A DNA stretch of 64,000 nt from NCBI GenBank assembly GCA_018394295.1, contig CP074573.1, forward strand, positions 3,042,543 through 3,106,542, read 5' to 3'. Position 1 is the stretch's first letter; each line of letters begins with the position of its first letter. The translations under genes and the position numbers were made by a program. Under the pieces are notes generated by a model. It did no database searches. It saw nothing but the letters and a program-made list of their open reading frames with translations, and was not told the origin of the DNA. Positions 23,885-25,290 of the stretch are shown here, in pieces. The DNA is from Mycoplasmatota bacterium (GTDB lineage: Bacteria; Bacillota_I; Bacilli_A; Haloplasmatales; Haloplasmataceae).

Positions 23885-24034
23885 ATGAGAACAAAAATTA
23901 TTTTAGTATGTACTGAATGTCTCTCGCGAAATTATACCGCTGATAAGAATAAATTAATTTCAACAGAACGTTTAGAAATTAAAAAGTTTTGTAGGCATTG
24001 TAATAAACATACCTTACATAAAGAAACTAAGTAG
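23885..24034 (+). CDS. rpmG: 50S ribosomal protein L33 (zinc-binding form)
   Basis: This short frame from ATG 23885 to TAG 24034 encodes 49 residues. It begins [20 protein letters not shown] and contains CTEC (9-12) and CRHC (36-39), the four zinc ligands of the C+ form of L33. It is located between the sigma factor and secE, as in Bacillus. The nearest Shine-Dalgarno-like site is AGGTGA at 12-15 bases. Confidence 0.92.
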
Positions 24035-24048
24035 GAGGAACAATTAAA

Positions 24049-24708
24049 ATGAATACTCGTAAAGAAACAATATATGGTATTGTAAAATATGTTTCGGGTC
24101 TATTAGGATTTATAGGAATCATTTTAGCAATCTTTACCGTAACAGGTGCTATTGAATGGTTTTTAATTGAGATAGATTATAGAGGAGCATTTACAAATGA
24201 AACGAAGTTAATCTTATCTTTAACATCATCAATTTTAGGTATTTTCTTTTTGTTCATTGCATTTTCTAAGCAAATTGATAAATTCTTCAGTTACTTAGAA
24301 ACTCATTCAGTTAATCAAACGGAAGAGAAAAAAGGAATTACTATTGAATCAATTTTCTTTATAACAATCGCTGTTATTTTAATTGTATTAGCTTTGTTAT
24401 TAGCAATAGGAACATTAGCATTAAAAACAAATTTACCATTATTGGGTAACGCAACAAAAACTTTCTTAATTGGTGCTTTAGTTGTGTTAGCGATATTAGC
24501 TATTTTAACTGGATTTAACGAAACAATTGCTCAATCAATTAAGGAAATGAAGAAAGTTCATTGGCCAACTGGTAAAGAAATGGTTGATTATAGTAAAAAA
24601 GTATTTACATTTATAATATTTTTCAGTGTATTTTTCTTAATTTTAGACTTATTCTTAACCAACGCCCCAATTTGGTTGGAAAATATTTTTGGAATTGACA
24701 TAAAATAA
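24049..24708 (+). CDS. secE: SecE with long N-terminal membrane extension
   Basis: SecE clamps SecY in the protein-conducting channel. The C-terminal 60 residues are a standard SecE: the amphipathic segment KEMKKVHWPTGKE (165-177) and a membrane helix at 184-205. It is preceded by about 160 residues holding four predicted membrane helices (near 13-38, 54-73, 100-125 and 137-155). Bacillota SecE is usually about 60 residues with one helix, and E. coli SecE has three. ATG 24049 follows AGGAGG directly after rpmG, and no internal Shine-Dalgarno suggests a separate short SecE. Position between rpmG and nusG is canonical. Confidence 0.88.
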   Translation: MNTRKETIYGIVKYVSGLLGFIGIILAIFTVTGAIEWFLIEIDYRGAFTNETKLILSLTSSILGIFFLFIAFSKQIDKFFSYLETHSVNQTEEKKGITIESIFFITIAVILIVLALLLAIGTLALKTNLPLLGNATKTFLIGALVVLAILAILTGFNETIAQSIKEMKKVHWPTGKEMVDYSKKVFTFIIFFSVFFLILDLFLTNAPIWLENIFGIDIK

Positions 24709-24750: not shown

Positions 24751-25290
24751 ATGGAAGAGAAAAATTGGTTTGTTGTACAAACTTATTCAGGACTTGAGAA
24801 CACTGTAAAAAATAATTTAGAACGTCGTATTGAATCTATGGGGATGGAAAATCAAATATTTCGTGTAATTATCCCTGAAGAAACAGAAGTTGAAATTAAA
24901 AAAGGTGTTAAAAAAGAAAAGGTTAGAAAAATCTTTCCTGGATATGTATTTATAGAAATGGTTGTTACAGATGAATCTTGGTATGTTGTTAGAAATACAC
25001 CTAACGTAACTGGATTTATTGGTTCAAGTGGGAAAGGTGCAAAACCTGTTCCTTTACGTCCTGGAGAAATTGATCCTATTTTGAAAAAATTAGGTTTACA
25101 TCGTGCAGAATATGACTTAAAAGTCAAAGTTGGCGAGAGTGTAAGAATTAAATCTGGACCTTTTACTGGTCAAAATGGTATTGTTGATGAGATTGATTAT
25201 GATAAAATGGTTTTAAAAGTTTTAGTTGATTTCTTTGGTAGACAGACAAAATTTGAACTTGAATTTACACAAGTTGAAAAAATTGATTAA
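24751..25290 (+). CDS. nusG: Transcription termination/antitermination factor NusG
   Basis: NusG binds RNA polymerase and couples it to Rho or the ribosome. It has 179 residues. The NGN domain opens with NWFVVQTYSGLENTVKNNL and contains FPGYVFIEM and WYVVRNTPNVTGFIG. The C-terminal KOW motif is VRIKSGPFTGQNGIVDEID. Translation starts at ATG 24751 after AGGAGG. It follows secE and ends before a terminator hairpin. Confidence 0.96.
   Translation: MEEKNWFVVQTYSGLENTVKNNLERRIESMGMENQIFRVIIPEETEVEIKKGVKKEKVRKIFPGYVFIEMVVTDESWYVVRNTPNVTGFIGSSGKGAKPVPLRPGEIDPILKKLGLHRAEYDLKVKVGESVRIKSGPFTGQNGIVDEIDYDKMVLKVLVDFFGRQTKFELEFTQVEKID

Follow-up and report, generated by a model that had tools for sequence, protein, structure and literature searches.

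SecE, a small subunit of the protein-export channel, is present almost universally, and in work by Schatz dated 1991 one of three SecE stretches reportedly proved sufficient. The excerpted text of one paper sets the SecE of Escherichia coli, which has three helices, apart from those of Streptomyces and Bacillus subtilis, which have one (PMC3087755). According to the excerpts of another, the accessory SecE hairpin of E. coli runs at a tilt alongside the C-terminal half of SecY, in contact with TMH8 and with the lateral gate, which it seems from simulations to modulate; the same excerpts describe its role as largely unclear and place such a hairpin in some Gram-negative bacteria (PMC6776908). 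Accessory SecE helices likely stabilise an early insertion state, in the words of a review excerpt (PMC8082313). Our literature search found no paper joining SecE with Haloplasma, and none on a five-transmembrane SecE translocase subunit. The SecE described here is a genuine, conserved, and family-specific elaboration of this subunit and not a new system; of the two hairpins that it adds, one is a common feature of the class.

The gene lies at 24049-24708 of the window (i.e., the whole stretch of 64,000 nucleotides that was analysed), on the + strand, like every other feature of the window given below. It starts with ATG and encodes 219 residues with five predicted membrane helices, a form that is kept in 6/8 genomes of the order. 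Its ribosome-binding site, AGGAGG (24033-24038), is placed 10 bases 5' of the ATG at 24049 and overlaps the stop of a 49-aa ORF (23885-24034), which we take, from its position and cysteine pairs, to be rpmG (ribosomal protein L33). The next gene 3' of secE is nusG (24751-25290), named by resemblance and position, which gives the order rpmG, secE, nusG; nusG also adjoins secE at four other loci (L098-L101). The canonical SecE core (residues 160-205, 24526-24663), composed of an amphipathic helix and TM5 (24601-24657), is matched by Pfam PF00584 (E 3.9e-13, 49.5 bits for a cut-off of 22.7) and by NCBIfam TIGR00964 (E 1.2e-12, 47.5 bits for a cut-off of 27.55), and its residues E166, M167, K169, V170, W172, P173, and D200 are invariant in an alignment of 16 SecEs. 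The sequence-only reading of this DNA had called the C-terminal unit standard, and these matches bear it out. In its own genome, a whole-protein search returned the 219-aa SecE as sole match, while the second PF00584 match (G000:C1:599636) reaches 18 bits and stays under the family cut-off. With its core over the curated cut-offs and its place before nusG, this ORF is the genome's only clear SecE.

Ahead of the core, a Kyte-Doolittle scan places four segments in the same frame, the five together covering residues 17-35, 54-72, 102-120, 138-156, and 185-203; the four extra helices that had been read from the window alone are found in all six genomes having the locus. TM1 (24097-24153) and TM2 (24208-24264) belong to an N-terminal domain (residues 1-93, 24049-24327), and TM3 (24352-24408) and TM4 (24460-24516) form an accessory hairpin (residues 94-160, 24328-24528). 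An AF2 monomer model built with 16 sequences (mean pLDDT 75.8, pTM 0.48) gives membrane helices at 2-32, 50-72, 99-120, 134-155, and 175-214, together with two short helices, 74-85 and 157-169, each of which closes a hairpin. The first of these, predicted as amphipathic (KQIDKFFSYLET, 24268-24303), carries the invariant residues D77, F80, and E84. The block 74-85 is modelled with a pLDDT of about 50-64 and the linker 86-92 with a pLDDT below 50; the model is only moderate as a whole, and its packing is not to be trusted. A Foldseek search of this model against the PDB gave no match with E <= 0.001.

The sequence-only reading had assumed that Bacillota SecE has one helix, and this assumption has to be given up. 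A PF00584 search covered 394 genomes of the class and matched in 363 of them. Reading 97 distinct SecEs yielded six five-helix forms (all of family f1), 52 three-helix forms, and 39 one-helix forms, proportions that are not frequencies, since the sample is non-random and long open frames were picked in order to find hairpins. From one 97-locus reading set, seven repeats of another locus and L039, which holds no SecE, were dropped. The three-helix SecEs (L010-L012, L018, L025, L028, L051, L056, L058-L075, L078-L095, and L152-L159) are spread over nine further families of the class (f3, f5, f9, f12, f14, f16, f20, f21, and f22). Such three-helix SecEs, with their accessory hairpin, are thus found widely in this class of Bacillota. 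Eight long frames (L152-L159) were considered as further five-helix SecEs and all read as three-helix; some of them carry long tails of charged residues or stay open further upstream. In three members of family f21 (L152 in G293, L153 in G210, and L155 in G079), acidic, lysine-rich N-terminal tails precede three-helix SecEs, with up to about 139 residues ahead of the first helix. The five-helix profile was also searched in 392 genomes of the phylum, of which 125 matched: a start at profile position 1-6 was seen only in the five Haloplasmataceae matched in that draw, and none of the other matches listed begins before position 74. Among 76 pattern matches in viral contigs there was no relative.

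The hairpin formed by TM3 and TM4 is the one that these three-helix proteins share. Aligned by hhalign with 44 three-TM SecEs, residues 94-176, a stretch whose final part borders the SecE core, give a probability of 98.66% (E 4e-16, 78 columns). As decoys, 177 transmembrane hairpins were taken out of the own genome, of which about 464 kb, window included, were used. For five of the six members, residues 94-160 scored above all 177 decoys; for the sixth and most distant (L036), 16 of the 177 equalled or beat it. The protein thus has the homologous hairpin directly before the core, as three-helix SecEs do, and exceeds them in its number of helices. Since the three-helix SecEs of the class account for TM3-4, the novelty amounts to two helices and not four.

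The order comprises eight genomes, and a near full-length SecE match was obtained in six of them, the own one included, with an identity to the window SecE of 61-67% in four relatives and of 35% in one. All six were read as five-helix SecEs of 212-224 residues, each with a good ribosome site. The two other genomes (G005 and G007) gave no SecE match and no nusG match either, in a nusG search run without its own positive control, so that the secE locus is probably missing from those two assemblies. One more match to the window SecE, in G002 (L039), was rejected as chance, since it is a different membrane ORF, followed by a helix-turn-helix-like gene. As the whole frame is present in six genomes, it is not an assembly artefact. 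In the most distant five-helix SecE (L036, G006), the TM1-TM2 loop is about seven to nine residues shorter and the N domain is much less conserved than in the others.

The N-terminal domain is under constraint in its own right. Residues 1-93 are 54-66% identical in the four closer relatives, for 66-76% in the core; pair by pair, the N domain and the core show 63-66% versus 66-67% in three pairs and 54% versus 76% in the fourth. In the most distant member, 25% of residues 1-93 are identical versus 48% of the core. In the four closer pairs, changes over residues 1-93 are rarest at the second codon position (0.11-0.22), then at the first, and most frequent at the third (0.40-0.56), the values of the far pair being 0.59, 0.32, and 0.55 at the first, second, and third positions. 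Judged from this substitution pattern, residues 1-93 are evolving as translated protein, and in conservation they come close to the SecE core. A short SecE could also arise by internal initiation or processing, in which case the extra helices would be irrelevant, and TTG and GTG codons are present inside the secE frame. However, these are the only alternative starts before residue 160, they lie within the hydrophobic part, and the window gene has no in-frame ATG between its first ATG and the SecE unit. In 6/6 five-helix genomes no candidate start outscores the first ATG for its ribosome site, and the codon-position pattern of residues 1-93 is that of translated protein. We thus hold internal initiation or processing to be extremely improbable from these data. 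The fusion, which had been said to look genuine, stands, with a coding pattern and a frame shared by six genomes.

Where TM1-2 came from is less easily settled. A profile of residues 1-93, searched in 60 genomes, strongly matched only the six Haloplasmataceae SecEs, the next matches (E 0.002 or worse) looking like chance. Neither the order nor these 60 genomes, own genome included, contained a stand-alone copy of TM1-2, i.e., the two parts were nowhere seen encoded separately, and no Pfam or NCBIfam family reached its cut-off over residues 1-161. On the strength of these searches, TM1-2 (residues 1-93) is Haloplasmataceae-specific and constitutes the real novelty. One origin would be a tandem duplication of the accessory hairpin within SecE, so that TM1-2 would repeat the functional part that TM3-4 represent. 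The AF2 model, in which the helix pattern repeats (each hairpin being followed by a short helix), is consistent with this, as are the hydrophobic moments of the two post-hairpin helices (0.60 for residues 74-85 and 0.52 for the other), both amphipathic. In global mode, hhalign scored the N domain against the three-TM hairpin profile at 17.8, for a shuffle mean of 4.3, with 0/150 column shuffles as high. Measured against real hairpins, however, the six N sequences do not stand out: 4 to 83 of the 177 decoys scored as high. Moreover, the local hhalign probability was only 23% or 32%, and the comparison of the N domain with TM3-4 of the same proteins, in global mode, was not significant (11/150 shuffles as high). 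Duplication is thus conceivable but somewhat doubtful. The same decoy test, by detecting no tie of residues 1-93 to the other hairpin, speaks for TM1-2 being an accessory membrane subunit of unrelated origin that became fused to SecE, and around TM2 the domain has a strongly conserved stretch of its own (SSILGIFFLFIAFSKQIDKFF). Capture is nevertheless unlikely, given that neither a stand-alone homologue nor a family over its cut-off emerged from the searches above and that SecG and YidC are encoded on their own.

A SecDF-, YidC-, or SecG-like helper had been proposed for the added helices, and the searches give it no backing. PF03840 (SecG), PF02096 (YidC/Oxa1), and PF02355 (SecDF) gave no match within residues 1-161. 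SecG is encoded separately in 7/8 genomes of the order and YidC in 8/8, including the own one in both cases (G000:C1:135441-135638 and G000:C1:2916372-2916947, respectively). In the own genome, PF02355 had no match at E <= 0.001; three relatives gave only weak ones, in open frames of 741-1133 residues that presumably resemble other RND proteins. Strong SecDF matches (E <= 1e-40) occurred in only five of 60 relatives; the three of these genomes whose SecE was read have the one-helix form, and none of the five was among the 23 genomes in which a three- or five-helix SecE was read. Haloplasmatales, like most of the class sample, seem to be without a true SecDF. The coincidence of SecDF absence with extra SecE helices is a lead only, because many one-helix genomes also go without SecDF. 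That the second hairpin would permanently add a wall or gate element to the translocon, doing in cis the task of a separate partner such as SecDF, seems to us very unlikely.

The reading that we favour, with reasonable though limited confidence, is a SecE built on three levels, i.e., the core, the class-wide hairpin TM3-4, and the Haloplasmataceae-specific hairpin TM1-2, with the hairpins placed beside SecY and modulating its gate. From helix parity and the charged ends, adding a helix pair would keep the core orientation, with the N-terminus in and the C-terminus out. Like the accessory hairpin in E. coli, the hairpins would sit next to the C-terminal half of SecY, and there they might stabilise SecY and modulate the opening of the lateral gate during membrane insertion. 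TM3-4, by their position, would have the role of the hairpin in E. coli, with TM1-2 as a second pair outside them that would widen the collar. By analogy with E. coli SecE, this second accessory hairpin probably packs beside SecY near the lateral gate; the contact with SecY and any effect on gating are inferred.

These proteins can be set against three known types of SecE. The three-helix SecEs of the class (e.g., that of Candidatus Izimaplasma, L103) have the same place before nusG, the same SecE core, and a homologous hairpin ahead of it; they differ in being without TM1-2, their N-terminus being a short charged tail. The Bacillus/Geobacillus-type SecE of about 60 aa and one helix, which we take PDB entries 5eul and 7xha to represent, shares the core (E 2.5e-9 to 3e-9) but is devoid of accessory helices. 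The SecE of E. coli (127 aa, three helices) likewise combines the core with an accessory N-terminal hairpin, a single one where Haloplasmataceae SecE has two. Against the E. coli SecEs in the PDB, the full-length profile aligns in register, if weakly (5gae_h 25-122, E 0.42; 5mg3_E 28-135, E 0.23), whereas the Bacillota hairpin profile, searched by itself in the PDB set, finds no match to E. coli SecE. Hence, the role known from E. coli is carried over on the ground of position and not of proven homology, and the Bacillota and E. coli hairpins may be separate inventions. Three-helix SecE is widespread in a Bacillota class, whereas the hairpin is attributed, in the excerpts of PMC6776908, to some Gram-negative bacteria. 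To this hairpin, one family has added a further helix pair under purifying selection, and SecEs with one, three, or five helices that share a core make up a natural series for testing what the accessory helices of SecE do.
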